Shown piece by piece: positions 4,449-33,161 of a stretch of DNA of 45,316 nt. Source of the stretch: an uncultured Ruminiclostridium sp. (lineage in GTDB: Bacteria; Bacillota; Clostridia; Oscillospirales; Ruminococcaceae); NCBI GenBank assembly GCA_905235805.1, contig CAJOMV010000095.1:1-45316 (forward strand). Direction: 5' to 3'. Position numbers and translations under genes: made by a program. The notes under the pieces were generated by a model. The model was not told the DNA's origin and did no database searches. It saw only the letters and a list, made by a program, of their open reading frames with translations. Each line of letters starts with the position of its first letter. Within the stretch, counting starts at the first letter, position 1.

Positions 4449-4464
4449 GTTAGCTTTCGCTAAC
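4449..4464 (-). promoter_or_regulatory. Shared palindromic operator, site 1
   Basis: GTTAGCTTTCGCTAAC has perfect 6-bp arms around a 4-bp spacer. It lies upstream of the minus-strand hydrolase that starts at 4335. A possible minus-strand -10 (TATAAG) covers 4482-4487, but no convincing -35 is visible, so the promoter is weaker or less certain than at the other sites. The rest of 4336-4608 holds nothing I can identify. Confidence 0.7.
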
Positions 4465-4608
4465 TCATGCTTGTGAATGAGCTTATATTCTTTAATTACG
4501 GCATAAATAACAATATATATTTTATCTTGATTGCCTGTAAAAGTCAGTATGAACGATGATCTTAATATTTCCGAAGCCGGGACTGATTATTGCTATGCGG
4601 TTTTCGGG

Positions 4609-4950
4609 TTATTGCCAGCTTTTCCACACATCCGGCGCATATCCTATCGTTGCCTGTTTTCCGTTGCGGACGACAGGCTGTTTCAGTACTGTCTGATTTT
4701 CGAGGACTTTTTCGAGCCTTTGCTCGGGAACGAGATATTTTATCATCGCAAGCGCCTGCTGATCCTTGCAGTCCGGGTCGAGCATTGCGTCAAGACCGCC
4801 GACAGCCTGCATCACGGACTGAAGCTCGCCTTTGCTGAACCCCTTTTCTTTGAGGTCGATAGATTGAAACCTGATGCCGCGTTCCTTGAAAAAACGCTCA
4901 GCCTTGCGTGTGTCGGCACTTTTCTTGGTCCCGAATATCTGTATATTCAT
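4609..4950 (-). CDS. ArsC/Spx-family protein lacking the usual N-terminal Cys
   Basis: The 113-residue protein has the thioredoxin-like ArsC/Spx/YffB fold: an MNIQIFGTKKSADTRKAERF start and a C-terminal PVVRNGKQATIGY segment. Canonical members have Cys where this one reads KKSADTRKA, so arsenate reductase chemistry is unlikely. The only Cys lies in the central DPDCKDQQ segment. Its role may be redox-independent or regulatory, but this is not known. I chose the ATG at 4950 because AGGAG lies 5 bases upstream. It follows the deformylase gene by 11 bp in the same operon. Confidence 0.75.
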   Translation of the reverse strand: MNIQIFGTKKSADTRKAERFFKERGIRFQSIDLKEKGFSKGELQSVMQAVGGLDAMLDPDCKDQQALAMIKYLVPEQRLEKVLENQTVLKQPVVRNGKQATIGYAPDVWKSWQ

Positions 4951-4961
4951 AGCTGCTCCTT

Positions 4962-5375
4962 TCATATCAGAATACCGCTGCAGTGGTCGGTCTCATGCTG
5001 GATTATCTGCGCCGGTCTTCCTGTAAACGTCTTTATTCTTGTCTCAAATCTCTCGTTCTGCCAGCGCACCTTGATGCTCATGTAACGCTTTACGGGTCTG
5101 GGATCGCCGATGAGCGACAGGCAGCCCTCACTTGTGTTGTACGGCTTGCCGCATTTTATGATCTCGGGATTGAACATTGTCATATAGCTGCCGTCGTTGT
5201 CGAAAACGATGATGCGTTTCAGCACCCCGATCATATTCGCCGCCATTCCCACGCAGGTCTCTTTATTTGCGATCAGAGTATCGAGCAGGTCTTCCGCAGT
5301 CTGCAAGTCATCGGCAGTCGCAGGCTCGGATTTCATCGCAAGAAACATCGGGTCGTGCACAATTTCTTTTATCAT
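4962..5375 (-). CDS. def: Short peptide deformylase
   Basis: This 137-residue protein carries all three deformylase motifs: a GMAANMIG version of motif 1, EGCLSL with the metal-binding Cys, and QHETDH with the two metal-binding His residues and catalytic Glu. It would remove formyl groups from nascent N-terminal Met in the cytoplasm. It is shorter than Escherichia coli Def and resembles a short clostridial type. Motif 1 lacks the usual Gln. It may be an accessory copy. The start at 5375 has GAGGT 7 bases upstream; an earlier in-frame ATG at 5399 lacks one. Confidence 0.85.
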   Translation of the reverse strand: MIKEIVHDPMFLAMKSEPATADDLQTAEDLLDTLIANKETCVGMAANMIGVLKRIIVFDNDGSYMTMFNPEIIKCGKPYNTSEGCLSLIGDPRPVKRYMSIKVRWQNERFETRIKTFTGRPAQIIQHETDHCSGILI

Positions 5376-5437
5376 AGATCTGACCTCATTCCACATCACT
5401 TTAACTGCGTTTTAACATTCAGATGTATCATTTTCTT

Positions 5438-5466
5438 ATTATAACATATAAGCTGAGCAAATTCAA
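5438..5466 (-). promoter_or_regulatory. Promoter for the deformylase operon
   Basis: Read on the minus strand, TTGAAT (5461-5466) and TATAAT (5438-5443) are separated by 17 bp. The promoter faces the deformylase start at 5375. It has no GTTAGC palindrome, so this operon appears to lie outside the shared regulon. Confidence 0.6.
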
Positions 5467-5601
5467 CCGTTTTGCAAAAATATATAATAAATTTACAGAA
5501 GCACTTATGAACACCATATTATCTTACGATAGCGTACACTGCGTGTGTGCAGTACGCGTATAAAAGATATACGGTCATTTGAGTAAAATTTACATTAAAC
5601 A

Positions 5602-5647
5602 TTGACATTCAGAGTATTTTGTGATATTATAGTTAGTGCCCGCTAAC
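5602..5647 (+). promoter_or_regulatory. Promoter with shared operator, site 2
   Basis: TTGACA (5602-5607), a 17-bp spacer and TATTAT (5625-5630) are followed after one base by the palindrome GTTAGTGCCCGCTAAC (5632-5647). The operator would cover the transcription start, which fits repression. It drives the methyltransferase, membrane protein and hydrolase operon from 5732. The rest of the 5400-5731 gap holds only the divergent deformylase promoter and untranslated leader. Confidence 0.8.
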
Positions 5648-5731
5648 AGCACGCGGCGCGGAACCGAAACACAGACGGGACTGCTTTTTAAGCGGTACAG
5701 ACCCGCAGAAATAATGATATGGGAGGACATT

Positions 5732-6355
5732 ATGGGACTGTTCAAGGATTATGTGAACCAGACAAGAAAACCGGAGGGCAAGCTCGGGAAGATGATGCTG
5801 AACGGTATGAACTCCGGGCACGCAAAAATGGCGGACTGGGGATTGTCACATCTGAAAAATATCGCACCGGAAATGCTCGTCGATCTCGGCTGCGGGGGAG
5901 GACGAAACGTGGGGGAACTGCTGAAAAAATACCCTGCCGCAAAGGGGACCGCTATAGACTACTCCGAGCTTTCTGTGGCAAAGGCGAGTGAGTATAACAG
6001 TGAGCTGATCTCGGCAGGGAGACTTGTGGTAAAGCAGGGAGATGTTTCGTCTCTTGAGCTGCCCGATAGTACATACGATCTCGCTACCGCGTTTGAAACT
6101 ATCTACTTCTGGCCGGGGCTTGAAAAGTGCTTCGCGGAGGTCGCGAGAATTTTGAAGGACGGCGGATATTTTATGATAGTCAACGAATCCGACGGAACAG
6201 ATGCCGCAAGCCTGAAATTCGAGAAGATCATAGACGGAATGAAGTGCTATACTGTCGGACAGATCTCCGAAGCTCTGAAGGCCGCGGGATTTCGCGGGAT
6301 AAAGACCGATCATCATAACAGCAAACCTTGGATAACAGTTCTGGCGAAGAAGTAA
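5732..6355 (+). CDS. Class I SAM-dependent methyltransferase
   Basis: The 207-residue protein has the Rossmann methyltransferase fold. Motif I is LVDLGCGGGRNVGELL around residues 48-63. A GTAIDYS segment gives the acidic residue that binds the SAM ribose, and GDVSSLELPDSTYDLATA is motifs II-III. A C-terminal KPWITVLAKK ends the sheet. It probably methylates a small molecule in the cytoplasm. The ATG at 5732 follows GGGAGG (5721-5726); in-frame codons further upstream lie inside the operator and leader. It is the first gene of a three-gene operon with a small membrane protein and an HSL-type hydrolase. Confidence 0.85.
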   Translation: MGLFKDYVNQTRKPEGKLGKMMLNGMNSGHAKMADWGLSHLKNIAPEMLVDLGCGGGRNVGELLKKYPAAKGTAIDYSELSVAKASEYNSELISAGRLVVKQGDVSSLELPDSTYDLATAFETIYFWPGLEKCFAEVARILKDGGYFMIVNESDGTDAASLKFEKIIDGMKCYTVGQISEALKAAGFRGIKTDHHNSKPWITVLAKK

Positions 6356-6370
6356 ATGAGGTGAAATGAT

Positions 6371-6868: not shown

Positions 6869-6883
6869 GATAAGGATAAGTCT

Positions 6884-7798: not shown

Positions 7799-7819
7799 AC
7801 ATTAAATATCCAACATAAC

Positions 7820-7849
7820 AACAAGTGCAGGAATAATCCTGCACTTGTT
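7820..7849. terminator. Bidirectional hairpin terminator
   Basis: A 12-bp perfect stem (AACAAGTGCAGG at 7820-7831 with its complement at 7838-7849) encloses the loop AATAAT. T-rich sequence follows on the plus strand and A-rich sequence flanks the other side. It sits between the convergent hydrolase and EcfA genes and can serve both. Confidence 0.8.
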
Positions 7850-7851
7850 CT

Positions 7852-9279
7852 TTATATTGAAACCGAACCGTTCTCAATATGGATTATATGGGTGCAGCAC
7901 CGCTCTATCAGCTCCATATCGTGAGTAACGATAAGCACAGTGCATTCACTCCCGAGTGAAGAGAGAAGCTGCGCGGTAAGCTCCATACTGTGGAAATCCA
8001 GCCCGCTTGTCGGCTCGTCGAATATCAGCAGCTTCTTTCCCGCGAGGAGCGCCGAGGCAATTGCGGTGCGCTGCTTCTGTCCCCCGGAAAGCGACATCGC
8101 GTGACGGTCCTTGTACTCCGCGATACCGAGCTTTCGGAGCATTTCAAGCGCTGTGTCCGTGTCCTCATTCCCCATACCGAGCATCACTTCTTCAAGCACA
8201 GACTCGGCAAAAAGCTGGTGGTTCACGTCCTGCATGACCATGTAGGAGATGCGCCGCATATCCCTCGGGCTGCAGGCTTTTCCGCCAGATGTCACGCTGC
8301 CCTTGAAGCCTTTCTGCAAGCCGCAGAGACATTTGACAAATGTGGATTTTCCGGCGCCGTTGTGACCGACCACAGCGCATACCGAGCCTGCGGGAATTTC
8401 GAGCTCCGGGATATCGAGAGCCGTATGCCTTCCGTAGCTGTATGTAAAATTTCGCAGCTCAATTGAGGCGGCATTTTCAAAGGGTTTTATAGCTGTCACG
8501 CCGGTATCGCTTTCGAGATAATTCCGCTTTTCCGCAACCGATCGCAAGCCCGCTGTGTTGAGTGAGACTGTCGGCTCCGCAAAGAATTCGGCACCCGTGA
8601 GATCCCGGGATACGCAGCCGTTCTCCATGAACAGCACACGGTCACATATCCCGTTCAGCCAGCCGAGACGGTGTTCCGCTATAACGATAGTTTTGCCCTG
8701 CTCCCTCCAGTGCCGTATTATGCGGCGCAGCTCGTCTATCGCGTCAAGGTCGAGGTTTGAGGTCGGCTCGTCAAGCACGATAAGCGGCGGCTGCATTGCC
8801 GAGACTCCCGCGCAGGCTATTTTTTGCTTTTCGCCGCCGGAAAGGTTGAAGATGCTCCTGTCGAGCAGCTTTTCTATCTTCATATCAGCGACTGTGCCGG
8901 AAATTCGCTCGCGTATCTCCTCCTCCGGCAGCCCCATATTCTCACAGCCGAACGCTATCTCGGCAGTGGTGTCCACACAGAAGAACTGGCTCCGGGGATT
9001 CTGGAAAACGCTGCCGACAGTCCCGGCAAGGTCTTCGATAGCGGTATCGGCAACGCTCCTGCCGAATACAGTGACATCGCCTGCAAGCTCACCCTCGTAA
9101 TAGTGTGGTATCAGCCCGTTCAGCAGCCGCGTTACCGTCGTTTTCCCGCAGCCGGAGCTGCCGCACAGCAGCACGCACTCTCCTTCGGAAATTGTAAGGT
9201 CAAGTCCGGTGAGCGCTCCCGCGTCACCGTTTTTGTAACGGAATGATACATTTTTCAGAACTGCCGCGGCTCCGCTCAC
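7852..9279 (-). CDS. ECF transporter double ATPase (fused EcfA domains)
   Basis: This 475-residue cytoplasmic protein holds two complete ABC ATPase domains in tandem. Domain 1 has Walker A GSSGCGKTT, signature LSGGEKQ and Walker B LIVLDEPTSNLD. Domain 2 has GHNGAGKST, LSGGQKQ and LLIFDEPTSGLD. Such fused pairs power energy-coupling-factor importers together with EcfT and a substrate-binding S component. The GTG start at 9279 forms a GTGA overlap with the EcfT stop, so I prefer it to upstream codons. It is the last gene of the operon that starts at 15103. Confidence 0.9.
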   Translation of the reverse strand: MSGAAAVLKNVSFRYKNGDAGALTGLDLTISEGECVLLCGSSGCGKTTVTRLLNGLIPHYYEGELAGDVTVFGRSVADTAIEDLAGTVGSVFQNPRSQFFCVDTTAEIAFGCENMGLPEEEIRERISGTVADMKIEKLLDRSIFNLSGGEKQKIACAGVSAMQPPLIVLDEPTSNLDLDAIDELRRIIRHWREQGKTIVIAEHRLGWLNGICDRVLFMENGCVSRDLTGAEFFAEPTVSLNTAGLRSVAEKRNYLESDTGVTAIKPFENAASIELRNFTYSYGRHTALDIPELEIPAGSVCAVVGHNGAGKSTFVKCLCGLQKGFKGSVTSGGKACSPRDMRRISYMVMQDVNHQLFAESVLEEVMLGMGNEDTDTALEMLRKLGIAEYKDRHAMSLSGGQKQRTAIASALLAGKKLLIFDEPTSGLDFHSMELTAQLLSSLGSECTVLIVTHDMELIERCCTHIIHIENGSVSI

Positions 9280-10019
9280 CGCACAACACCTGCCCTTCCG
9301 AGGATAAGCAGGACATACACCGACAATATCATCATCAGCACGATAATATCCTGCAAGCGAAAGCCTATCCTGCATATATTTGTCCTGCGAACCTTCGTGC
9401 CGAGACCGCGGGTGAGCGCAGCCGCGGACAACTCGCTGCCGATATTGACCGAGCATACCATGAGCGGTATCAGCCTGTATTCGAGCAGCTTTCCCGCGTT
9501 CCTGCCGCCGAGCCGTATATCCCGCATTTTCATTGCCATGTTTATTGCCGCGAACTCTTCAAGCACGGTTGGAAAGAAGCGGAACATCACCGACATCGGA
9601 ATGGTTATCTGCTGCGGTATGTGCATTCGGTGCATCGCCGAGATGAACTCGCTCACAGTCGTCGATGACAGCATATACGCACCCATTATCAGTCCCGGCA
9701 TAACGCGCACGAAGATGAGGCTGCATATACCGAGGACGCTGTGCGCCAAGCCTGTGAGCTGCGGCACAAGCAGCATATCCGAGAGCTTGACGAGAATGTA
9801 CAGAGCGCCGTAAACAGCGGATTTCCCGAACTGCTTCGCCGTCATCAGCAGCACTATCGGCATGAAGCTGAGCACGACCGTAGCAATTCGCACGGCGGTT
9901 ATATCGCTCCCGGCGCTTCCGAGAGCGAACACCACCAGCGTTATCATCACGGCAAGCTTTGTACGCGGGTCAAGCACAAGCCCGCGGTTTTCCACGTCGG
10001 CGGTAAACAGCTGTGCCAT
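9276..10019 (-). CDS. ecfT: ECF transporter transmembrane component EcfT
   Basis: The 247-residue membrane protein has about five to six hydrophobic helices and the C-terminal coupling region typical of EcfT. KMRDIRLGG and AALTRGLG stand in place of the classic Ala-Arg-Gly coupling motifs that touch the ATPases. It links the S component encoded at 14537 to the double ATPase. The ATG at 10019 follows a GGAGA site and lies one base after the preceding ABC gene stop. Its last 80 residues align well with the short protein at 44857-45105. Confidence 0.85.
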   Translation of the reverse strand: MAQLFTADVENRGLVLDPRTKLAVMITLVVFALGSAGSDITAVRIATVVLSFMPIVLLMTAKQFGKSAVYGALYILVKLSDMLLVPQLTGLAHSVLGICSLIFVRVMPGLIMGAYMLSSTTVSEFISAMHRMHIPQQITIPMSVMFRFFPTVLEEFAAINMAMKMRDIRLGGRNAGKLLEYRLIPLMVCSVNIGSELSAAALTRGLGTKVRRTNICRIGFRLQDIIVLMMILSVYVLLILGRAGVVR

Positions 10020-10020
10020 A

Positions 10021-11754
10021 TCACAGTCTCCACGACGCGGCTTCACGCCTGCCGGCAACGAATGTACGGTAGATACCGTCTTGCCGCATAAGCTCGTCAT
10101 GGGTGCCTTGCTGCGCGATCCTTCCGCTGTCGATGACGAGAATACTGTCCGCCGTGCGCACGGTTTTAAGCCTGTGGGCGATCATTATGACTGTCTTTTC
10201 TTTCGTGAGCGCTTCGATCGCGTTCATAAGCTCTGCCTCATTTTCGGGGTCAACGTTCGCGGTGGCTTCATCGAGCACGATTATCGGTGAGTCCTTCATT
10301 ATTGCGCGGGCAATGGAAATGCGCTGCTTCTCGCCGCCGGAGAGTGAAGCCCCGCCCTCGCCGATCACCGTATCGTAGCCGTCGGGGAGCTGCATTATGA
10401 AGTCGTGGCAGCAGGCTTTTTTCGCCGCTTCGATGACCTTTTCCATAGGTGCTTCAGGCTGACCGAAACGGATATTGTTTGCAATGGTGTCCTGAAACAG
10501 ATACACCCGCTGGAAAACGAAGCTGAAATTACGCATAAGCGCGTCCATGCTGTATTCCCGCACGTCGCGTCCGCCGAGCTTCACTGCGCCCTCATCAACG
10601 TCCCAGAACCGGGAGAGCAGGGAAGTGAGCGTTGTCTTTCCTCCGCCGGAGGGTCCGACTATCGCAGTGGTCGTGCGCTCGGGAATAGTAAGGGAAATGC
10701 CGTCGATTATCTTCTTTTCCGCGTAAGCAAAGCCGATGCTTTCGCCGGTAATGTCGTAATTCTCCGGGACGATATCCTCGCCGGTTATGTCCATCTGCGG
10801 AGTTTCGAATATTTCCTGCGCCTGCCGCACGCTGACATCAACGGTGCGCAGAAGCGCGGAATATTTGCCGGCGCTGTCGAGCTGCGCGTAGATCAGATAC
10901 GAGCTGATTATCATTATGATGCAGGTGAGCAGATCCATACTGCCGCCGATGTACAGCAGTACGGACGTCAGCAGTATCACAGTCCCCACAGCCTTCAGCC
11001 AAAAGCTCTGCAATGTCATGTACGGTATCAGCTTCAGCTCCATTGCGGAGTTCGCGTGCTCGTTCTCGTCTATCGCGGTGTTCAGCTCCTTGCTGCGCTG
11101 TCCAGTGATCTTGAATGCTTTGACCTCGGGAATGCCCTGAATGTACTCTATGACCTTCGCTATAAGCGCGGAGTCCTTCTCCTGCTTGCGCTTTGCCATG
11201 TCCGCCGAGGCTTTCATCATACCGCTGTTTATCGCGAAAAACACGATAAGCCCCGCGCAGAGTATCAGTCCTATGCGCCAGTCGTATACCAGCAGCACCG
11301 CGGTTATGACCGCAGTGGAGAGCAGTCCCGAGCATACCAGCATAACGACGCGCGTTGCCACATTTTCGAGATTCTGCATAGTGTTTGTCGTCACGGACAT
11401 GATGTGTCCGAGGCTGTTGTCGTTGTAGTAGCCCATGGGCAGGTAACGCAGATGCTCCGCGAGCTTCATACGCTTCTCGGCGCAGGTGCCGTAGCCTCCC
11501 TCGGTCTGGAGCATAGTAGCCTTGCTTTTTACGATACCGGAGCCGATGACGCTGACAGCCATAATTCCGAGACAGATAAAGCAGGTCTGCGCGGTGACAT
11601 TGTTTTCAAGCAGCGCAGACACCATGCAGGCAATCGCCGGGATTTTGAGCGCTTCAAACATCGCCTGGAACAGGCTGAAGACGATAGAAGAGCAGAACTT
11701 TTTCCTGTCGGTGGGACTGCAGAAACCAAAGAAGTTTTTCAGTATCTTAAACAT
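10021..11754 (-). CDS. ABC exporter-fold half-transporter (second of pair)
   Basis: The 577-residue protein has an N-terminal six-helix ABC membrane domain and a C-terminal ATPase. The ATPase carries Walker A GPSGGGKTT, Q-loop VFQRVYLFQD, signature LSGGEKQ, Walker B IIVLDEATANVD and H-loop IAHR. With the preceding gene it should form a heterodimer. Tandem half-transporters next to an AraC regulator resemble the YbtP/YbtQ-type siderophore importers, but the direction and cargo cannot be read from sequence. The ATG at 11754 lies inside the end of the upstream gene, whose stop is at 11747. The closest in-window relative is the protein at 43105. Confidence 0.9.
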   Translation of the reverse strand: MFKILKNFFGFCSPTDRKKFCSSIVFSLFQAMFEALKIPAIACMVSALLENNVTAQTCFICLGIMAVSVIGSGIVKSKATMLQTEGGYGTCAEKRMKLAEHLRYLPMGYYNDNSLGHIMSVTTNTMQNLENVATRVVMLVCSGLLSTAVITAVLLVYDWRIGLILCAGLIVFFAINSGMMKASADMAKRKQEKDSALIAKVIEYIQGIPEVKAFKITGQRSKELNTAIDENEHANSAMELKLIPYMTLQSFWLKAVGTVILLTSVLLYIGGSMDLLTCIIMIISSYLIYAQLDSAGKYSALLRTVDVSVRQAQEIFETPQMDITGEDIVPENYDITGESIGFAYAEKKIIDGISLTIPERTTTAIVGPSGGGKTTLTSLLSRFWDVDEGAVKLGGRDVREYSMDALMRNFSFVFQRVYLFQDTIANNIRFGQPEAPMEKVIEAAKKACCHDFIMQLPDGYDTVIGEGGASLSGGEKQRISIARAIMKDSPIIVLDEATANVDPENEAELMNAIEALTKEKTVIMIAHRLKTVRTADSILVIDSGRIAQQGTHDELMRQDGIYRTFVAGRREAASWRL

Positions 11755-13567
11755 CGTCGTCACCGTCCTTCGCCGAGATATGCGCAGCCCACATCGAGCT
11801 GTACAAGCCGCCTTTTTTCAGAAGCTCGTTATGCGTTCCGCTTTCCTCGATGCTGCCGTCATTTATGACGTAGATGCAGTCGGCGTTCTTGACTGTGGAA
11901 AGGCGGTGCGCGATTACTATAAGTGTTTTTGAAATCCGCTTTATTTGCACCGCATCCGTGCGGTGCTTCTGAGCGGATTCTTTACGGCTTCCTGCCGTGC
12001 CGTACACAAGCTTAGCCACACTTCTCTGAATGAGCGCTTCATTCTCCGGGTCTGTATAGGCTGTGGCTTCGTCGAGTATCACGATATCCGCGTTTTTGAG
12101 CATTGCGCGGGCGATCGCGATACGCTGGCGCTCACCGCCTGAGAGATGCCCGCCGGAGGAGCCTACCACCGTGTCGTAGCCGTTCTCCAGCCCCATGATA
12201 AAGTCGTGACAGCCGCACTGTTTCGCGGCTTCCTCGACCTCCGCATCGGTGGCGGACTGTTTGCCGAGACGTATATTCTCGCGTATGGTCAGGTCGAACA
12301 AGTAGTTGTCCTGCGAGACGTAGGCTATCCTGTCATTGTAGTCGTCAAGCGGTATATCTTTGATATTAACGCCGCCGAGGGAAATGCTCCCGCCGCTCAC
12401 GTCCCAAAGGCTTGCGATAAGGCGGGCTATGGTGGATTTTCCGCTGCCGGAGGGACCTACAAGCGCAATGAGATCGCCGCTGCATATCGTCATCGAGACT
12501 CCGTGCAGAATTTCCTTATCGTCGTAAGCAAAATGCACATCGTCAAGCACGATATCTCCGCCCTTTATCTGAGCTGTAAGCTTCTCGGGCCGCACCATTT
12601 CCGGCGCGTCGAGAATGCTCCTGACTTCGGTAACTATCGTGTCCATCTGCGCGATATCGTCGGAATATGACATCACCCCGATAAGCGGTTCTATAAGCCC
12701 GACCGTAAGTATTATAACAGTTATGAAGTCCGCGGGAGTTATGCTGCCGTGTATCGCCATTGCTCCGCCTATGGGCAGCACCGATATCATAGTAGCGGGC
12801 ATAATGCACATTGCGAAGGTCATATACACATTGCAGGAGCGCATCCAGTCAACGAAGCTTGCCGCGGATTCCTTTGCAGCAGCCGCGAATTTCTCGTAGC
12901 TGCTCTGTGCCTTTCCGAACACCTTGATGACCTCGATGCCGCGTATATATTCGGCAGTCACGGCGTTGAGCTCCTTCGTGGCTTTCACGGTCCTGCCGTA
13001 TTTTTCCTCGTACCCGAACATCATCAGCGCGTAGCACACAAGCCCTATCGGCACGGTGATAAGCGCCGCGAGTCCAAGCTTCCAGCTTATCACGAACACA
13101 TATATCAGCACTATCACTGGCGCGCCTATGCCTGTTGTGAATTCCGGGAGTATGTGCGCAAGCGTTGTCTCTATGCTGTCGATACGCTCGACTATGGTGC
13201 TTTTGAGGGAGCCGGAGGGCTGGTTCATCACGTTGCCGAGGGGCATTTTCGCAAGCTTGTCGAGGGCGGTTTTGCGTATCACCGCAAGAGTGTGGAAGGT
13301 CGCAAGATGTGAGTTCGCGGTAGAAAGCGCGTGAAACAGCGAATGCCCCAGCCACAGTGCGAGGATCATCACACAGTTCACGATGTACGCGCCGGTGTCT
13401 GTGTTCCCGTCAAGCAGCATTTTCACTGTTTCCGCAACAAAATAATACGGCACGATGCCGCATATCATACTGATTGCCGCAAGTATCACACTTGCGGTGA
13501 ATTTTCCTTTTCGCTCCCCCGACTGCTCAAGCAGCCAGCCGAAGGAATTGTTTTTGTCCTTTCCCAT
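11747..13567 (-). CDS. ABC exporter-fold half-transporter (first of pair) with an in-frame insertion
   Basis: The 606-residue protein has six predicted membrane helices, then an ATPase with GPSGSGKST, LSGGERQ, VILDEATAYTD and the H-loop IAHR. Between Walker B and the H-loop about 25 residues (starting YGTAGSRKESAQ and ending QIKRIS) replace the usual two or so residues. The paralogue at 41367 reads IIRGKTVLVIAHR across this point. The extra DNA forms hairpins (see the repeat entry). The frame is kept and all catalytic motifs remain, so the gene may still work. The ATG at 13567 follows AAGGTG and overlaps the end of the AraC gene region closely. Confidence 0.9.
   Translation of the reverse strand: MGKDKNNSFGWLLEQSGERKGKFTASVILAAISMICGIVPYYFVAETVKMLLDGNTDTGAYIVNCVMILALWLGHSLFHALSTANSHLATFHTLAVIRKTALDKLAKMPLGNVMNQPSGSLKSTIVERIDSIETTLAHILPEFTTGIGAPVIVLIYVFVISWKLGLAALITVPIGLVCYALMMFGYEEKYGRTVKATKELNAVTAEYIRGIEVIKVFGKAQSSYEKFAAAAKESAASFVDWMRSCNVYMTFAMCIMPATMISVLPIGGAMAIHGSITPADFITVIILTVGLIEPLIGVMSYSDDIAQMDTIVTEVRSILDAPEMVRPEKLTAQIKGGDIVLDDVHFAYDDKEILHGVSMTICSGDLIALVGPSGSGKSTIARLIASLWDVSGGSISLGGVNIKDIPLDDYNDRIAYVSQDNYLFDLTIRENIRLGKQSATDAEVEEAAKQCGCHDFIMGLENGYDTVVGSSGGHLSGGERQRIAIARAMLKNADIVILDEATAYTDPENEALIQRSVAKLVYGTAGSRKESAQKHRTDAVQIKRISKTLIVIAHRLSTVKNADCIYVINDGSIEESGTHNELLKKGGLYSSMWAAHISAKDGDDDV
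11930..12004. repeat. Palindromic hairpin insertion inside an ABC gene
   Basis: About 75 bases absent from paralogous genes contain nested inverted repeats. The outer arms are GAAATCCGCT (11931-11940) and AGCGGATTC (11972-11980). The inner arms are GCACCGCA (11947-11954) and TGCGGTGC (11959-11966). A second small hairpin follows (ACGGC 11984-11988 with GCCGT 11994-11998). The length is a multiple of three and has no stop in the gene frame. It looks like a small mobile palindromic element of the REP/RPE style. I found no second copy in this window. Confidence 0.6.
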
Positions 13568-13568
13568 T

Positions 13569-14540
13569 TTATCTTTCACCTTTTCTGTATTCCTGCGGCG
13601 ACACACCCATTACGTCACGGAACGCCGCCGAGAATTTTGACGCGTTGTCGTAGCCGAGCTTCTGCGCGATCTCCGCAATGTTGATATCCGGCTCAGACAT
13701 CAGCATAGACGCAGCCGCGTTCATGCGGTAATTCCGTATATACTGATAGATCGGGCTGCCGTAGACTGCCTTGAATATCTTGCGTAGTGACGCGGACGGT
13801 ATCTCAAACCTGCGCGAAAGCTCATCTGTCGTGTAATTCCTGCCGAGGTCGGACGTCATCAGCGTGTGTATCTCCTTTATCTTATCGGTCTGCTGTGCCG
13901 GGAAATACTGTCGTTCCTCCGCAAATTCCGACGGGTCTAGCGCCGATAACTGCAGCAGCAGCTCCGTAATTTTCAGCTTGAAGTAATCCTGTCTTATGCT
14001 TTTCGGAGTGCGGTAGAGCTGCGTGAATATCATGTTCAGCGGCTCGTTCGCGCGGAGCAGGAATTCCTTGCTGTCGGGACAGAATTTCTGTGAGAGCGCA
14101 TCGAGATCCACCTGCACGGAGGGCAATTCCCGTTTTAGCGAGACCTGCGCGTCGCCTCTGACAAAGCCGATTGTCAGACCGTGATAGTGCGACAGCGGGA
14201 GGTGGACATTCCCCTCATGGTGAACGCGGCGATCTATCCGCAGGTCGCCGGCTTCCATGTAGTACCGCCCGCCGACGGAGTTTTCATGCTCTATGCGTCC
14301 CTCGCGGCAGTGGTCAATGCACAGCACGGTCTCGGCGTTCTGATATTCCGAAACGCAGCTTTTCAGGTGAAAGTCGTTGTACATCAGGTATATCCCGTCA
14401 AAGACCCGATACATCATCATGAACCCCTCGCCGGACGCGTCCTCGAGCCGCAGCACGCGGCAGTCCGCCTCGGCAGCGACCTCACGGACGTTCGAGCCGA
14501 AGCCCGCATCATCGAGCCGCTCGAAAAGGTCGGTGTTCAT
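13569..14540 (-). CDS. AraC family transcriptional regulator
   Basis: This 323-residue protein has an N-terminal ligand-sensing region and a C-terminal AraC double helix-turn-helix from about residue 225. The second helix-turn-helix contains the hallmark IAQKLGYDNASKFSAAF and ends in GVSPQEYRKG. It probably activates the ECF/ABC operon in which it sits in response to the imported compound, as AraC-type regulators such as YbtA do in siderophore systems. The ATG at 14540 overlaps the S-component stop (ATGA). It is second in the operon, so its own level depends on the operon promoter and its shared operator. Confidence 0.9.
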   Translation of the reverse strand: MNTDLFERLDDAGFGSNVREVAAEADCRVLRLEDASGEGFMMMYRVFDGIYLMYNDFHLKSCVSEYQNAETVLCIDHCREGRIEHENSVGGRYYMEAGDLRIDRRVHHEGNVHLPLSHYHGLTIGFVRGDAQVSLKRELPSVQVDLDALSQKFCPDSKEFLLRANEPLNMIFTQLYRTPKSIRQDYFKLKITELLLQLSALDPSEFAEERQYFPAQQTDKIKEIHTLMTSDLGRNYTTDELSRRFEIPSASLRKIFKAVYGSPIYQYIRNYRMNAAASMLMSEPDINIAEIAQKLGYDNASKFSAAFRDVMGVSPQEYRKGER

Positions 14541-15103
14541 ACGATGCCCGCCTTCTCAAAGTGCTTTTTCATCAGCGCCTTTCCGAGCAGTCCGCCGATA
14601 ATACCGCATACAAACGCGACCGCAAACATCACGGGACACATCCATACCGGCATCAGCGAATTCACGGTGTCTATGTACTCCTGCCCGTAGTCCTGACGGG
14701 CTGCCCAGTATTCCTCCGCCGCAAAGAACAGCGGCAGGTAGTTTCCCGCTATCCACAGGCTGAATATCCCGCTGGTGATAACGGCTTTCGCGGCGCTCTG
14801 ATACTTGCCGCTCCTGTACACAAGCTCCGCCAGCAGTCCGCTTACCACCGATACAACAAGCGGCGGCCAGCTCATTCCCGTCAGCAGCATGAGCAGTCCC
14901 ATGATAACGCTCATGATCCATATCATGCCGAATTTTTTGACTCTCGTTAAGAACAGCATGAACGGTATGCCGCCGAGTATCGGGACGATGACCGCCAGCA
15001 GCGGCAGAAATATCGGTATCATACCGAGCATTGCCACTGTAAAGACGATAACAAAATATATCGCCGAGAAAATTCCGATGTTTATAAGATCCTTGCCTTT
15101 CAT
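14537..15103 (-). CDS. ECF transporter S component, MptD/Trep_Strep-like
   Basis: The 188-residue membrane protein has five to six hydrophobic segments. Its MKGKDLINIGIFSAIYFVI start and the motif IPIFLPLLAVIVPILGGIPFM (split over residues near 30-50) match the Trep_Strep/MptD-type S-component family from memory. It would bind the substrate and hand it to EcfT and the double ATPase. The ATG at 15103 has GGAGG 5 bases upstream; a GTG at 15115 overlaps that site. It is the first gene of the six-gene operon. The substrate of this family is not established. Confidence 0.8.
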   Translation of the reverse strand: MKGKDLINIGIFSAIYFVIVFTVAMLGMIPIFLPLLAVIVPILGGIPFMLFLTRVKKFGMIWIMSVIMGLLMLLTGMSWPPLVVSVVSGLLAELVYRSGKYQSAAKAVITSGIFSLWIAGNYLPLFFAAEEYWAARQDYGQEYIDTVNSLMPVWMCPVMFAVAFVCGIIGGLLGKALMKKHFEKAGIV

Positions 15104-15115
15104 AAATACCTCCAC

Positions 15116-15180
15116 AGGTTAGGCGAAGCTAACCTAACTCGTTAAATTTGACCCGATAATTCGGGGCGAGTGACATTATA
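15116..15180 (-). promoter_or_regulatory. Shared operator, site 3, and leader of the ECF/ABC operon
   Basis: The palindrome GTTAGGCGAAGCTAAC (15118-15133) extends to a near 20-bp dyad and almost touches the S-component ribosome binding site. A minus-strand TATAAT lies at 15175-15180, about 41 bp upstream, without a clear -35. A separate CCCGA-TAAT-TCGGG hairpin at 15152-15165 lies between them. The operator would act as a roadblock within the leader or at an unseen promoter. Confidence 0.6.
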
Positions 15181-15960: not shown

Positions 15961-15981
15961 TACAATTCTCCTGTTCGTCCG

Positions 15982-16026
15982 GTTAGTTTGCGCTAACATT
16001 ATAGCACATTTTTCTTCCAGATGCAA
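15982..16026 (-). promoter_or_regulatory. Promoter with shared operator, site 4
   Basis: On the minus strand, TTGCAT (16021-16026), a 17-bp spacer and a perfect TATAAT (15998-16003) abut the palindrome at 15982-15997. Read in the direction of transcription the operator is GTTAGCGCAAACTAAC, identical to site 7 upstream of the surface protein gene. It controls the DUF6796-like gene at 15244. Confidence 0.8.
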
Positions 16027-17253: not shown

Positions 17254-17307
17254 TTGACAATGCGGGGAAGATGTGATATTATATAATAAAGGTTAGTCAA
17301 CGCTAAC
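17254..17307 (+). promoter_or_regulatory. Promoter with shared operator, site 5
   Basis: TTGACA (17254-17259), 17 bp and TATTAT (17277-17282) precede the palindrome GTTAGTCAACGCTAAC (17292-17307). A second possible -10, TATAAT, lies at 17282-17287. It drives the hydrolase that starts at 17335. Confidence 0.8.
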
Positions 17308-18600: not shown

Positions 18601-18654
18601 GTTTGCGTTTGCTAACCCTTCCCTTATTATAGCACTGTAAAAGTCATAAGTCAA
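18601..18654 (-). promoter_or_regulatory. Promoter with shared operator, site 6 (one weak arm)
   Basis: On the minus strand, TTGACT (18649-18654), 17 bp and TATAAT (18626-18631) precede the palindrome at 18601-18616. It reads GTTTGCGTTTGCTAAC on the plus strand, so one arm has a mismatch. The region lies between divergent genes. A weak plus-strand promoter (TTGCGT at 18603 and TATTAT at 18625) would overlap the operator, so the site may also affect the plus-strand operon at 18686. Confidence 0.7.
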
Positions 18655-23779: not shown

Positions 23780-23859
23780 TTGACAAAATTATAACATAGT
23801 GTTATAATAGAATAAGTTAGCGCAAACTAACTTTATTGATGGGTTAGCGCAATCTAACC
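23780..23859 (+). promoter_or_regulatory. Consensus promoter with tandem shared operators, sites 7 and 8
   Basis: A perfect TTGACA (23780-23785)-17 bp-TATAAT (23803-23808) promoter is followed by two palindromes: GTTAGCGCAAACTAAC (23816-23831) and GTTAGCGCAATCTAAC (23843-23858). Their centres are 27 bp apart. This is the only tandem pair in the window and the strongest promoter, so the surface redox genes may be the most tightly controlled target. Confidence 0.85.
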
Positions 23860-23891: not shown

Positions 23892-25364
23892 ATGAAAACA
23901 GCAAAAAAGGTATTCGGTGTCGGTATCTCTGTATGCACAGCGGTCTCTTGCATGAGCTTCGCTGCGGGAGCCGCCGATGAGTATGTGTACGGAACTATGG
24001 ATATCCCGTATGACCTGTTCTACGCGGGAGAACTCGACGGAGCGGCAAACAGCTACACGGTTGACGCGGTATCCTCCGCGACAGACGCAAAGTGGTCAAA
24101 GAACGGCGAGGGTGAGCTTTTTGAGGGAACATACCACTCGGAAGCAAACTCGGACGGCTCGGGCAAGATCCTCGGTGTAACATACCCCGTCGCAATAACA
24201 CAGGCGGACCTTGACGCGCTCGGAGCGGACAACTTCAATTTCACAAAGCTCGATTCCGCCCCCGCTGCATACAAGACAGTCACCGTTGACGGAACGACCG
24301 CATCATTCTCCGCGATAAATGACGGCTCACCGGAAACAAAAACAGGCGACGTAAGCATCGACGCGAACTCTGTATGGGGTGACTATCAGCTGTCCGTAGA
24401 CAAATTCCCGGAGGATTTCGGCGCTGTTTACGGCGCGTTCATCACGACAACGGATAACTATGTGTATGTGATGCGTCATGAGCAGAATATCTGGAGACAG
24501 GGCGCTATCGCATGGTCGGTAGGCTTCAGGACAGAGGAACCCCACGGAAATAAGCTCGACTATGATATTTATGCAGACTCGCAGGGCAAGACTATCGACA
24601 AGCTCACATACATCACCAAGGACGGCTATGTAACATACGATGTTGATGTCTATATCCCCAAGAAGTTTGTATACACAGCCGAGATCGCGAACGCGGCAGT
24701 AACCGCTGGCAGCACAGAGATAAACCTCACAGGCTTCCCTGAAGACTACGATGCGCAGTATGATATCCGCGGACTTGATTTTACCGTTGACGGAAGCACT
24801 GTCACATTCAATAACGCTGCGGCAGGCGGATACAGCGGAACTATCTCCGATAAGAGCGGCGTTTATCAGGATATCCCCGTAAGCTTCGAGCTTACTACCG
24901 ACGCAATGCCTGCGCAGTACGATGCGGCATCGAAGTCTCTGGTCGCTGCTGACGGTGCTTCGGCAGATGAGCTTGCAGACTTTATAAAGAACATCTCAAC
25001 AGTGTCCGTTGACGGCACTGACTATGCAGCTTCCGGCAAACATGGTCTTAAGATCGTAGCCGACGACGGCTCGATAGACCTCGCCGCGGAGAGCAGGGGA
25101 GGCAAGGCGTTCTCCGATGACAAGACCGAGTTTGAGGTAGCTGTCAAGGCAGCCGGCTATACACAGGAACTGAAGTTCACACTCTCCACAGCGGAAGCTG
25201 TGCTTGAAGAGGCTGCGGAAAATTCTTCCTCGGATACAGCTGCCGCGGTTGAAACAGTCACCGCTGCGACCGAAAGCACGAACCCGAAGACCGGTGTCAC
25301 AACAGCGTTTGCGGCACTTGCACTCTCCGGCGCGGCTTTAACGCTGTCAAAGAAGAGAAAGTAA
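23892..25364 (+). CDS. Secreted Tp47-domain-like surface protein with NPKTG anchor
   Basis: The 490-residue protein has a signal peptide (residues about 1-27, ending AAGAADE). From memory, repeated beta domains of the penicillin-binding Tp47 type follow, then a C-terminal sorting signal: NPKTG, a hydrophobic stretch and KKRK. NPKTG-type signals occur on sortase-B-like substrates in heme uptake systems. Near residue 58 a VDAVSSAT motif resembles the DxxSGAT site that ApbE flavinylates. Its partner 70 bp downstream carries a true FMN-binding domain. A surface redox or ligand-binding role is inferred; penicillin binding is not. Confidence 0.75.
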   Translation: MKTAKKVFGVGISVCTAVSCMSFAAGAADEYVYGTMDIPYDLFYAGELDGAANSYTVDAVSSATDAKWSKNGEGELFEGTYHSEANSDGSGKILGVTYPVAITQADLDALGADNFNFTKLDSAPAAYKTVTVDGTTASFSAINDGSPETKTGDVSIDANSVWGDYQLSVDKFPEDFGAVYGAFITTTDNYVYVMRHEQNIWRQGAIAWSVGFRTEEPHGNKLDYDIYADSQGKTIDKLTYITKDGYVTYDVDVYIPKKFVYTAEIANAAVTAGSTEINLTGFPEDYDAQYDIRGLDFTVDGSTVTFNNAAAGGYSGTISDKSGVYQDIPVSFELTTDAMPAQYDAASKSLVAADGASADELADFIKNISTVSVDGTDYAASGKHGLKIVADDGSIDLAAESRGGKAFSDDKTEFEVAVKAAGYTQELKFTLSTAEAVLEEAAENSSSDTAAAVETVTAATESTNPKTGVTTAFAALALSGAALTLSKKRK

Positions 25365-25384
25365 AACAGAGATACTATAACAAA

Positions 25385-25420
25385 CGCCTGTCCGTACTTA
25401 AAGCCGGGCAGGCGATTTTT
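25385..25420 (+). terminator. Terminator or attenuator between the surface redox genes
   Basis: CGCCTGTCC (25385-25393) pairs with GGGCAGGCG (25406-25414), with one G-U pair, around a 12-base loop. ATTTTT follows. It sits between the surface protein and the membrane reductase genes, so it probably lowers expression of the second gene rather than ending the unit fully. Confidence 0.7.
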
Positions 25421-25436
25421 CTGAAAGAGGTAAACA

Positions 25437-26786
25437 ATGCTGTTTCTTATCGCGCTTGTCATTGCTGTTTCGTTTTCGCTTTTATGTGCTCCTGTATTAC
25501 GAAAAAAGCCGCTGCCGTTCTACATTGCGGCTGCGGTGCTTTCCGCCGCGGTGGTGATACTGGCGCAATACCGTATCGAAAATGAGCTTGTGCAAAAATA
25601 TATCCTTGCCCTCTTTTCAAAAGGAGCGGTCGCTACCGCGTTCTGGTGCGTCGTGATGTTCGCGGGAGCTCTGCCGCAGAAAAGCGCGCTTCGCAAGCGT
25701 CTTATACCCTCACGCGGAGAGCTGTCCATATTCTCCGCGCTGCTCACGCTGTCACACATTGTCACTTACGCAGTCATTTATATCAAGCGTCTGCTGAACC
25801 CGGACTTTGACCCGCAGACCGATTTTATCGTCACCTGCGCAGTCGTGATATTGCTTATGTGCATTATGATACCGCTGACGATAATGTCCTTCAAAAAAGT
25901 GCGGAGCAGAATGAAGCCGAAAACATGGAAAAACATACAGCGCGCAGCGTATCTTTTCTTTGCGCTGATATATGTCCATGTGCTTGTGCTTTATGTGCCC
26001 CGTGCTATACGCGGGACTGACGGGTATCTGCTCACCGTAATGACGTATACCGCAGTATGGACTCTATATCTTGTGATGAGACTTCGCAAATACTTTACCG
26101 AGCGCAGAAAGAGCAGTAACACAGCTGCCGTCAATACATTTTCCATTCTCGGTTTTACTGTCCCCGTTATTGCTGTGTTCTTCATATCGGGCGGTATTCC
26201 GAAGCAGGGGGATATACCTGTCGAAGCTCCCGCCACAGCCGCTGTAACGAGCGCGACGGGGGTGACATCATCTTCCGTGACCACAGTCTTACAGACGACG
26301 ACCACAGGGACGACAAACGCAGAGACAACGAACGTAACAACAACCGGAACTACAGCGACAACAGCCTCTGCGACAGATACAGAGGAACAACCGCAGACTG
26401 TGGCAGAAACGACCGCTGTACAAACATCTGAAGCCACAACCACAATACCGGAAACGACCACAACAACGGAAACGACAATGACAACTGCCGAGGAGACCGA
26501 ACCGCCTGCTCCGCGGATCTATAACGACGGCACATTCACCGGAAAAGCATACGGTTACGACGGGTACATCTATGTCACAATAACGGTCGAAAACGATATG
26601 ATAACCTCGGTTTCCTCCACCTGCGAGGAAGAGGATATTTCATACTGGCTGTCATGCCGTGAGAAGGTCATATCGCAGATAATAGATTTACAGCAGACAG
26701 AAGTCGATGCCGTTTCCGGTGCTACATACAGCTCAAACGCGATAATGAAGGCTGTCGCGGCGGCTATGGAAGCCGCGGAGAAATGA
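25437..26786 (+). CDS. Ferric-reductase-like membrane protein with FMN-binding domain
   Basis: The 449-residue protein has six to seven N-terminal helices of the ferric-reductase/MsrQ-like type. His residues in LLTLSHIVTYAV and FALIYVHVLVLY could bind heme b. A long extracytoplasmic Thr-rich linker (about residues 265-360) leads to a C-terminal FMN-binding domain with VDAVSGATYSS. There the Thr of SGAT is the expected ApbE flavinylation site. The predicted path is electron transfer from the membrane heme to an external FMN. AAAGAGG precedes the ATG. It pairs with the surface protein upstream. Confidence 0.8.
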   Translation: MLFLIALVIAVSFSLLCAPVLRKKPLPFYIAAAVLSAAVVILAQYRIENELVQKYILALFSKGAVATAFWCVVMFAGALPQKSALRKRLIPSRGELSIFSALLTLSHIVTYAVIYIKRLLNPDFDPQTDFIVTCAVVILLMCIMIPLTIMSFKKVRSRMKPKTWKNIQRAAYLFFALIYVHVLVLYVPRAIRGTDGYLLTVMTYTAVWTLYLVMRLRKYFTERRKSSNTAAVNTFSILGFTVPVIAVFFISGGIPKQGDIPVEAPATAAVTSATGVTSSSVTTVLQTTTTGTTNAETTNVTTTGTTATTASATDTEEQPQTVAETTAVQTSEATTTIPETTTTTETTMTTAEETEPPAPRIYNDGTFTGKAYGYDGYIYVTITVENDMITSVSSTCEEEDISYWLSCREKVISQIIDLQQTEVDAVSGATYSSNAIMKAVAAAMEAAEK

Positions 26787-29156: not shown

Positions 29157-29214
29157 AGGAATAAATCGTGTGCTGCAAAACATTTTACATTATCTGAATT
29201 GAGAAAGGATATAT

Positions 29215-29847: not shown

Positions 29848-29864
29848 AAATATGGGGTGATAAA

Positions 29865-31192: not shown

Positions 31193-31193
31193 C

Positions 31194-32120
31194 TTATTTC
31201 TTCACCGCGAACCTGAACATATCCGCGCCGAGTATCCGTACATTCACCTTGTCCGCGACAGCTTCAAGGAACCGCATTTCCCTCGGCGAGAGCGTTGTAT
31301 TGACAGCCTCATAAAGCTGCTCGACCTGATACGGCTTGCGGCAGCCACATATAGGCACAATGCCCTTGTTTGCGCAGAATGCCTCCGCGACCTGCGGTAT
31401 TGTGATATTGTGCCGCTTACCGACACGGTCCATAGCTGCGTACAGCGGGCGCAGCTTTTTCTTTTTGCCGCTGAAAATGAGCTTCATCAGCGAGCCTTTC
31501 GTTTTGACCCGCGGGTCGGTGAGCATACCCTCCTCGAGGACTGCCCAAGCCCAGAATGAGATACCGTTTTCCCTGCACCACGCAACTACGCCGTTTTGCT
31601 CCCATTCGCGGCTGATAAGGCTGTAATGGTTCTGCACACCGTAGAGCGGTATCTTCGCATAGTCGAGTATGGATTTCGCCTTCCTGCATTCGGCGAGGTT
31701 GAAATTCGATATACCGATATGGCGGATCCTGCCCTCATTGTAAAGAGCAATGATCTCTGCGAGATTTTTCTCGATATCCGTTGGCAGGTGCAGCCAGTAA
31801 ATGTCCAAATATTCCCGTCTGAACTCTGCCAAATCGCGCTCCAGCGACTTTCGCACCTGTCCGGGAACGTACTTTTTTCCGGGCGTGAACTTCGCCGATA
31901 TGTAAATATCTTCCGTACCGAATCCACCTATCATTTTCTGCGCCTTGCCAAGCCCGTAATCCTGCGCAAGATCGAAGATGAGCAGGTTTTTTTCTTTTGC
32001 GGTGTCCATTGCTTTTCTGATCGTATCGTCATCGACGCTGCTGCCGCGAAGAAGCTTTCCGTACGCGGCGCTGCCCCACGAGTTTGCTCCTATGACTGCT
32101 TTTGGTGAGCTTATGTCCAT
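31194..32120 (-). CDS. Aldo/keto reductase family protein
   Basis: The 308-residue cytoplasmic enzyme has the (beta/alpha)8 aldo/keto reductase fold. The tetrad residues are present: Asp and Tyr in DLAQDYGLG, Lys in ISAKF and His in IYWLHLP. NADPH-dependent reduction of a carbonyl is expected. A cofactor-side GIVPICGCRKPYQVEQL segment also fits. The ATG at 32120 follows AGGAGG. It lies 14 bp downstream of a subfamily D hydrolase and shares its operator-controlled promoter. Confidence 0.9.
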   Translation of the reverse strand: MDISSPKAVIGANSWGSAAYGKLLRGSSVDDDTIRKAMDTAKEKNLLIFDLAQDYGLGKAQKMIGGFGTEDIYISAKFTPGKKYVPGQVRKSLERDLAEFRREYLDIYWLHLPTDIEKNLAEIIALYNEGRIRHIGISNFNLAECRKAKSILDYAKIPLYGVQNHYSLISREWEQNGVVAWCRENGISFWAWAVLEEGMLTDPRVKTKGSLMKLIFSGKKKKLRPLYAAMDRVGKRHNITIPQVAEAFCANKGIVPICGCRKPYQVEQLYEAVNTTLSPREMRFLEAVADKVNVRILGADMFRFAVKK

Positions 32121-32134
32121 TTCTGTTATCCTCC

Positions 32135-33007
32135 TTAAAGCTGCTGTACGCCCCATTTGTCAAGCGTTTGCAGTATTGCTTCAAGCGCGTCCTCCCGCGC
32201 TTTCTGACACTCCGCAGGGTGTTTTTTCTCCTGAGGAAGCAGGTCATTATTTATCGGGAAATAACCGAGATTGTGGCTGCCGTTCTCGAAATTAATGTGC
32301 CTGTATGAATGTGAAGATCCCATTCGCTGCAATCGTGAGATCAGAAGCTCGGCATCACGCTTCGCGGGAACGGATTCATCATTTGTTGAAGTCAGGAAAA
32401 GTATGTCACCGTTGATCCTTTCGACGGGAATTTCATTTTCCTCTGTTCCTTTCCGTTCCCATTCATCAAAGAAATACAACAGCCGGATATTATGTTCCTT
32501 CATGCAGCGTTTAAAGAATGCTCCAAAAACGCCCTTGTTCGGAACATAAGGAAAGTCCTTCCCGTCGAGTGAGACCATAGCCTTGCACGGTGACAGATCC
32601 TTCCCGCCGTTACCCTGCATTATGTGACCGAATGACGATGCAGCGATCACGAGGGAAATGTCAGGTACTGTGCTTGCGGCAAGCAGCGCCATTCCCGCGC
32701 CTTTGGAGTTGCCGTAAATGCCGAAGCGCCGAAATGTGCCGTTTTCGTACCGCTTCATAGTATCGCGGGCAGTGCGGAATTGTTCCAGCGGTATAGCGCG
32801 CATGGTCTTCGGCTGTCCATCGCCGCCGTAATATGACATCGCGAGAGCCGAGTACCCCTTGCCCGCGAACATCTCCGCGTATTTCGACGGCAGTTCCAGT
32901 CCCTTCAAGCCCTGTATCACAATCAGCAGTCTGTCGTCATCGTTCCCGGCATCATAGAGCACTGCCTCAAAGCCGTCTTTTGTATATTCGTATTGCTGAG
33001 TTTTCAT
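32135..33007 (-). CDS. Alpha/beta hydrolase, BAAT-C/dienelactone-type (subfamily D)
   Basis: This 290-residue protein has the elbow YGNSKGAG with Ser101, a probable acid in LTSTNDESVP and the base His in ENGSHNLG. It is a clear paralogue of 28260-29156: both share the YSVMIL/YSALAM strand, the GDILFLT strand and the His loop. I chose the ATG at 33007, because upstream in-frame codons run through the operator. It leads a two-gene unit with the aldo/keto reductase. Confidence 0.8.
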   Translation of the reverse strand: MKTQQYEYTKDGFEAVLYDAGNDDDRLLIVIQGLKGLELPSKYAEMFAGKGYSALAMSYYGGDGQPKTMRAIPLEQFRTARDTMKRYENGTFRRFGIYGNSKGAGMALLAASTVPDISLVIAASSFGHIMQGNGGKDLSPCKAMVSLDGKDFPYVPNKGVFGAFFKRCMKEHNIRLLYFFDEWERKGTEENEIPVERINGDILFLTSTNDESVPAKRDAELLISRLQRMGSSHSYRHINFENGSHNLGYFPINNDLLPQEKKHPAECQKAREDALEAILQTLDKWGVQQL

Positions 33008-33025
33008 GGCTTCAACCCGCCTTCT

Positions 33026-33076
33026 GTTAGCTATAGCTAACTCTTTTATAATATCACATAATACCCTGAATGTCAA
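33026..33076 (-). promoter_or_regulatory. Promoter with shared operator, site 9 (perfect palindrome)
   Basis: On the minus strand, TTGACA (33071-33076), 17 bp and TATTAT (33048-33053) precede GTTAGCTATAGCTAAC (33026-33041). This operator is a perfect 16-bp palindrome including its spacer. It controls the hydrolase and aldo/keto reductase pair and is back-to-back with the divergent promoter of site 10. Confidence 0.85.
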
Positions 33077-33110
33077 TATCTTTTCTGCACAACCGGAGCG
33101 CATTTTGCTG

Positions 33111-33161
33111 TTGACATATCTATGAAAATGTGGTATTATAATAAAGTTAGCGGACGCTAAT
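33111..33161 (+). promoter_or_regulatory. Promoter with shared operator, site 10
   Basis: TTGACA (33111-33116), 17 bp and TATTAT (33134-33139) precede GTTAGCGGACGCTAAT (33146-33161), which has one mismatch in the last base. It drives the DUF6796-like and hydrolase pair from 33186. Confidence 0.8.

Follow-up and report, generated by a model that had tools for sequence, protein, structure and literature searches.

What controls the accessory genes of a 45,316-nucleotide stretch of DNA from an uncultured, probably rumen-dwelling Ruminiclostridium sp. (assembly GCA_905235805.1, contig CAJOMV010000095.1, positions 1 to 45,316; hereafter the window)? A first-pass annotation had noted ten copies of a palindrome, GTTAGC-N4-GCTAAC, between positions 4,449 and 33,161 and had taken them for one shared operator of a dimeric helix-turn-helix repressor. 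Our analysis supports this view, and the sites lie mostly over the transcription start. Judged by sequence comparison, the operator is real and genome-wide, and its owner is very probably an iron repressor of the DtxR family that recognises a variant form of the known box. Specifically, we propose, with a probability of about 0.87, that the palindrome is the iron-box operator of P0001, a short DtxR-family repressor encoded outside the window, which would shut off iron-acquisition genes in an Fe2+-dependent manner.

All ten palindromes were recovered where they had been placed, two of them exact (4449 and 33026) and eight with one mismatch. Allowing at most one mismatch to GTTAGC-N4-GCTAAC (a close match), the window contains 12 matches where 0.05 are expected, a number reached in none of 100 shuffles; ten are the sites already annotated and two, at 41564 and 42677, are additional. 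These extra matches (41564-41579 and 42677-42692) fall within the open reading frames (ORFs) of ATP-binding cassette (ABC) transporters, downstream of a TetR gene, and may be chance matches or internal sites. The signal resides in the close matches, because the count at up to three mismatches (16 in the window) does not exceed that expected by chance (15.6); a loose three-mismatch search was dropped, as it returned chance numbers only. The consensus reads (R)GTTAGC-N4-GCTAAC(Y), with a 16-bp palindromic core. The inner motif TTAG-N6-CTAA has ten exact matches in the window against 0.54 expected and fits every annotated site except 18601.

The promoters in front of these sites show a consistent geometry. 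A -35/-10 pair of TTGACA/TATAAT type, with at most one mismatch in 12 positions and a 17-bp spacer, is present at six of the ten sites (5632, 17292, 18601, 23816, 33026 and 33146), each of which starts 1-9 bp downstream of the -10. Seven such promoters had been counted originally, which is close. At 15982 a perfect -10 touches the site but the -35 is poor. Site 23843 is the second of a pair behind the 23816 promoter, and 4449 and 15118 have no such promoter. With up to three mismatches, promoters were found at seven of the ten sites, compared with a mean of 1.1 (maximum 6) in 300 mononucleotide shuffles. A protein bound at these sites would cover the transcription start. The sites had also been described as all intergenic; 15982, 18601 and 33026 overlap the beginnings of ORFs when these are called mechanically at their greatest length, but the true start codons are probably downstream of these sites, because the promoters point through them.

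The palindrome is not confined to the window. Across the source genome we observed 24 sites with at most one mismatch, and a reversed control pattern gave one, so the sites are not randomly scattered. The window, with 1.9% of the sequence, contains 12, and other contigs carry the remaining 12; what had been proposed as a regulon of about 30 kb is therefore the densest part of a genome-wide set. When any inner base was allowed, the genome gave 34 matches and the control 16. We symmetrised 24 own-genome sites (21 of the 24 above, leaving out 41564, 42677 and one site on contig C50, plus three two-mismatch sites); G stands at the outer position in 44 of 48 half-sites, and C at the inner position in 32 of 48, which reads as G on the opposite strand where IdeR has C. 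These figures are partly constant by construction, as the sites were chosen by motif. The central N4 and the flanks are far more variable than the arms. Outside the window, an FTR1 iron permease with an FtrD-like protein has three nearby sites, one of them at two mismatches. Other neighbours include a DUF3793 gene with a pair of sites and a P-type ATPase with a two-mismatch site, as well as alpha/beta hydrolases and ABC and MatE transporters.

Which protein would bind these sites? None of the regulators in the window had seemed a likely owner, and our results agree: the one DtxR-family gene detected in the genome, encoding P0001 (125 amino acids; G000:C84:12568-12942, minus strand, where G, C and L are our labels for genomes, contigs and loci), lies elsewhere, adjoining a RelA/SpoT gene. 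P0001 matches the Pfam winged helix-turn-helix domain PF01325 (5.5e-9) and the metal-binding and dimerisation domain PF02742 (4.2e-17), both above the curated cut-offs, and among solved structures its best match is DtxR (5.6e-11), with MntR at 1.4e-10. Its Met9, Cys100, Glu103 and His104 correspond to Met10, Cys102, Glu105 and His106 of the DtxR primary metal site. The defining residues of MntR proteins are Asp or Asn in place of Met10 and Glu in place of Cys102, and sulphur ligands raise Fe2+ selectivity relative to MntR (PMC10317159); P0001 lacks the MntR-defining residues and has Met and Cys. We do not class it as an IdeR proper, because the protein ends at 125 amino acids without the C-terminal SH3-like domain; it is probably an iron-sensing, short DtxR-family repressor. 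The Fur family (PF01475) had no match in the source genome, which is 80.7% complete, and control genomes matched in 13 of 14 cases. At the position of Gln43 in the DtxR recognition helix, P0001 carries Arg. Gln43 touches the first base of the repeat (PMC8464063, PMC10317159), a contact reported to be unnecessary for recognition (PMC8464063).

The presence of the repressor gene goes together with the number of sites. In a set of 60 genomes (the source genome and 59 relatives, 36 of the 60 belonging to one genus), 49 encode a DtxR orthologue. These 49 have a median of 4 sites and the 11 without it a median of 0 (p = 1.7e-4, against p = 0.90 for the reversed control pattern), although the relatives are phylogenetically non-independent, which makes this and the following p value too small, and one of the 60 supplied the motif. 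In the 11 genomes, a profile search gave no DtxR-family gene. Genomes with Arg at the Gln43 position (23, median 6 sites) exceed those without it (25, median 3; p = 5e-4, control p = 0.53) in a comparison of 48 of the 49 genomes, six distant paralogue loci being excluded and G043 having no other locus. We hypothesize that this Arg and the G in the box could form a specificity code. Among 59 DtxR-family loci (of 64 matches, five weak ones left out), in seven a close site lies no more than 300 bp upstream of the protein match, and the upstream regions contain 13 sites in 17.8 kb, against 15 over 446 kb of those loci. This points to self-regulation of the DtxR gene through the site in some relatives, and three further cases come from the class-level loci described below. 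Six of the seven proteins have Arg and one, at L070, has Ile; L069, with two two-mismatch sites upstream, also has Ile.

The genes behind the sites in other genomes point to iron. Among 118 genomes of the class Clostridia, 82 exact sites are spread over 30 genomes (the source genome and G048 together hold 19 of these sites), compared with six for the control pattern. From these we took 20 loci in 17 genomes, chosen before their genes were seen, and recorded marker genes (FeoB, FeoA, DtxR, ECF S component, IrtA-like ABC or DUF3793; ECF, energy-coupling factor) starting at most 350 bp downstream of the exact site. A marker was present in 15 of the 20: FeoB in 9, DtxR in 3, and FeoA, ECF S component, IrtA-like ABC and DUF3793 in 2 each. 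Thirteen of the 15 rest on FeoA, FeoB, DtxR or ECF S component; the weaker cases are L163 (DUF3793 alone) and L161 (an ABC match alone), and in L168 FeoB stands at the 350-bp limit. A second set of 20 loci, taken at sites in relatives (13 genomes, seven loci from G048, regions again chosen before the genes were seen), contained FeoB in seven and DUF3793 in four; the FeoB query for both sets came from L097, itself a locus of the relative set. Finally, 70 proteins near sites in 28 loci, hand-picked and including loci fetched for their DtxR gene, so that the DtxR count is biased, gave Pfam matches to FeoB_N (10), FeoA (9), DUF3793 (4), ZIP (2) and FecCD (1). The site is conserved in front of feoAB, DtxR and other iron-type genes.

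Our model suggests that, when intracellular Fe2+ is bound, one P0001 dimer would occupy each site. As most sites lie just 3′ of the -10 and over the transcription start, the dimer would block RNA polymerase; when iron falls, the repressor would leave and the iron-acquisition genes would be switched on. We infer that P0001 binds the site, that Fe2+ is its co-repressor and that repression results. Where two sites lie 25-36 bp apart, the pair would probably hold two dimers. This spacing accounts for 18 of 33 neighbouring sites less than 400 bp apart, in loci partly selected for multiple sites, and suggests two dimers acting together. Such pairs recur in L036, L039, L043, L054, L098, L099, L101, L156 and others.

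Several observations weigh against this model. The ancillary metal site of DtxR consists of His79, Glu83 and His98, and P0001 keeps one of these three residues: the His is present, and the Glu83 and His98 positions are Thr and Ser. The missing SH3-like domain is a further departure. No site lies within 300 bp upstream of the P0001 gene, and 52 of the 59 DtxR-family loci likewise have no close site upstream. In the source genome, the best FeoB match has no site with up to two mismatches within 1.5 kb on either side, and some sites front genes without a known iron link (GH9 with a short AraC, LCM methyltransferase, EAL, PPDK_N). Five of the 20 class-level loci have no marker downstream. In six same-genus genomes with 83 sites, a scan of 36 flanking proteins (31 of 50 listed, with 18 loci given, plus five from the source genome) found FeoA, FeoB and ZIP once each, alongside ABC (5), DUF6796 (3), DUF3793 (2) and several metabolic enzymes. 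G052, which is 97% complete, has four sites, one beside a FeoB match, and no DtxR-family match; G003 has eight sites and no DtxR-family match, together with five matches to the control pattern. The conservation upstream of orthologues on which the first-pass annotation had staked its proposal was found at the surface-protein/reductase pair described below, but only in part for DUF6796, with a close site within 1.5 kb at 4 of 10 loci of relatives.

How do other explanations fare? The same DtxR-family protein and site could work with manganese, as in MntR, or with another divalent metal. The short SH3-less DtxR proteins resemble MntR in length, the MntR structure is among the matches of P0001, ZIP transporters occur in both protein sets above, and the residue aligned with Met10 is Asn or Asp in 36 of the 59 DtxR proteins compared. 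Yet the targets include FeoA/FeoB, FTR1 and ECF components, P0001 itself has the Fe2+-type Met and Cys, and the Cys is kept in 57 of the 59, so we consider a co-repressor other than iron unlikely.

An operator of another regulator is less likely still. Candidates include the AraC protein encoded in the ECF run (13569-14540) and the TetR protein at 40717. The AraC gene stands within a site-led run, and AraC matches occur near sites in several loci, such as those of G085 and G130; however, sites front feoAB and DtxR genes where no AraC match is found (L156, L157, L159 and L165, for example), and AraC proteins usually bind asymmetric direct repeats. The TetR gene has no close site upstream. A dispersed repeat, or chance matches without a regulatory role, is scarcely credible as the origin of the palindromes: the three-mismatch count is at chance level and two close matches sit inside coding ORFs, but the excess of close matches, the promoter geometry, arms far more constant than the N4 and flanks (unlike a copied repeat), and the exact sites across the class with their marker genes all contradict it.

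We return to P0001 and the genes that it would control in the window, which are collected in Table 1.

Table 1. Palindromic sites of the window, their promoter elements and the genes that adjoin them
Feature	Coordinates	Strand	Form and promoter	Genes
Site 1	4449..4464	.	exact; no clear promoter	flanked by alpha/beta-hydrolase gene 3427-4335 (-) and small ORF 4531 (+)
Site 2	5632..5647	+	-35 5602-5607; -10 5625-5630, 1 bp upstream of site	leads 5636-7798 (+): methyltransferase, then 165-amino-acid protein, then alpha/beta hydrolase
Site 3	15118..15133	-		just before the ribosome-binding site of the gene for the ECF S component (by eye)
Site 4	15982..15997	-	-10 15998-16003; weak -35	leads DUF6796 membrane protein (15244 -)
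Site 5	17292..17307	+	-35 17254-17259; -10 17277-17282	leads alpha/beta hydrolase 17335-18105
Site 6	18601..18616	-	-10 18626-18631; -35 18649-18654	points to small membrane protein (18088 -)
Site 7	23816..23831	+	-35 23780-23785; -10 23803-23808; both perfect	leads surface-protein/ferric-reductase genes
Site 8	23843..23858	+	second of pair, 27 bp from site 7	
Site 9	33026..33041	-	exact; -10 33048-33053; -35 33071-33076	leads 33103-31194 (-): BAAT-like hydrolase and aldo/keto reductase
Site 10	33146..33161	+	-35 33111-33116; -10 33134-33139	leads DUF6796 33186-33875 and alpha/beta hydrolase 33878-34738
Gene run behind site 3	7852..15115	-		Trep_Strep ECF S component, AraC regulator, two ABC half-transporters, CbiQ T component, duplicated ECF ATPase
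Surface/redox pair	23892..26786	+		surface protein, then membrane ferric-reductase-like/FMN-binding (flavin mononucleotide) protein

The two ABC half-transporters of the run behind site 3 are, we presume, of the IrtAB/YbtPQ kind. This run recurs in part behind sites elsewhere: ECF S and T components in G085 (L162) and G143 (L164), an AraC gene and two IrtA-like ABC genes followed by a DtxR gene in G130 (L161), and an ECF S component in L134. G143 carries an iron island (L164-L165, G143:C36:22000-61900) with 13 close sites over about 33 kb and ECF, IrtA-like, DUF3793, FeoAB, DUF6796 and two DtxR genes, which resembles the window. In the surface/redox pair, the surface protein (23892-25364) contains a Shr-like_HID domain (PF07550) and, by eye, a C-terminal NPKTG-like anchor. 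Because surface-protein matches are rare (2 of the 60 genomes, one of them the source genome), conservation of the pair was examined at four named loci, in two Ruminiclostridium, one Oscillospiraceae and one Ruminococcus assembly, Ruminiclostridium and Ruminococcus both belonging to the class Clostridia. All four have an upstream site, close in three and with two mismatches in L137, and in L134 and L135 a pair of sites stands at the same place as 23816/23843.

Five divergent DUF6796 membrane proteins are encoded in the window (15244-16026, 18686-19366, 20237-20995, 29865-30542 and 33186-33875). The other four are 18-23% identical to the last, several adjoin alpha/beta hydrolases, and homologues occur near some sites in relatives. 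An AlphaFold model from five sequences (mean predicted local confidence, pLDDT, 72) had no PDB match at E values up to 0.001, and our literature search found no paper mentioning DUF6796. Two proteins of the ATC-hydrolase family (PF14196; 20992-21669 and 29215-29847) also lie within gene runs of the window, and the small membrane protein behind site 6 had no family match above the family cut-off. DUF3793 repeatedly adjoins a site, often a pair, in different bacterial families (L024:8860-9429, L092, L099, L108, L163 and L164); it is possibly an iron-limitation protein, and the one paper containing this name in the literature search concerns a fungus by its title.

What would this mean beyond one genome? 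Most low-GC Gram-positive bacteria are said to use Fur for iron, with DtxR proteins limited to manganese (PMC10317159), and elsewhere iron control in many Gram-positives is assigned in general terms to DtxR proteins (PMC7576875). Single-dimer half-sites in other species have been named as a matter for investigation (PMC10317159). On the present sequence evidence, a relative of the rumen Oscillospiraceae appears to have a DtxR-type iron system that consists mainly of single-dimer sites. We tentatively extend this, at somewhat less than even odds, to a large part of the class Clostridia, which might control iron not by Fur but by a short SH3-less DtxR protein reading a single-dimer GCTAA box, with Arg at the Gln43 position accompanying the G in place of C in the box, and with a regulon that might include undescribed iron-limitation modules (chiefly the window's DUF6796 membrane proteins beside alpha/beta hydrolases and methyltransferases, and DUF3793). 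The site offers a sharp marker with which to look for iron-controlled genes in uncultured gut bacteria, and it gives DUF6796, DUF3793 and similar families a testable candidate function, iron limitation.

Comparison with known systems places the site close to the IdeR/DtxR box. It had been thought that no named regulator has this site; its spacing is in fact that of the DtxR/IdeR single-dimer half-site, with one base per repeat changed. A literature search found no report of this box in Clostridia; it covered sources outside the subscription literature and regulon databases, where an earlier description is possible. The 19-bp IdeR box consists of four CCTAA repeats, one dimer sitting on repeats 1 and 3 and the other on 2 and 4, and a single dimer binds a half-site for which a 14-bp consensus, TTAGGNNNNCCTAA, has been proposed (PMC8464063). 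At repressed genes IdeR sits over the start and/or the -10 (PMC10317159). The site described here shares the TTAG-N6-CTAA one-dimer spacing, the dyad symmetry, the placement over the transcription start and the iron-uptake targets. It differs in having GCTAA for CCTAA (the inner base being mostly G) and a conserved outer C, and nine of the ten window sites have room for one dimer each, with some arranged as spaced pairs, rather than forming an overlapping double site; P0001, moreover, lacks the SH3 domain of IdeR. Two general forms were rejected: the CCTAA half-site has one window match at up to one mismatch against 0.81 expected, and the 19-bp overlapping double box fits only site 3, which extends to the classical DtxR box (15119-15137) with three mismatches, where 0.01 are expected.

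Fur shares the role of iron master repressor with the proposed P0001, but the source genome yielded no Fur-family gene, and Fur recognises a different site. MntR resembles P0001 in size and two-domain architecture, and differs from it in the Fe-type Met/Cys ligands and the iron-uptake targets found here. EqbA, the DtxR-like regulator of the equibactin locus of Streptococcus equi, is reported with a 36-bp palindrome at the eqbB promoter (PMC3672683), compared with a 16-bp genome-wide site here, and none of the 48 window ORFs scanned has a non-ribosomal peptide synthetase domain. EqbA is likewise a short SH3-less DtxR-family protein with a Cys ligand, and it controls a siderophore locus with an importer and fused ABC genes, which we count as a likeness. 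Among the regulators we have seen described, EqbA is the nearest analogue of P0001.

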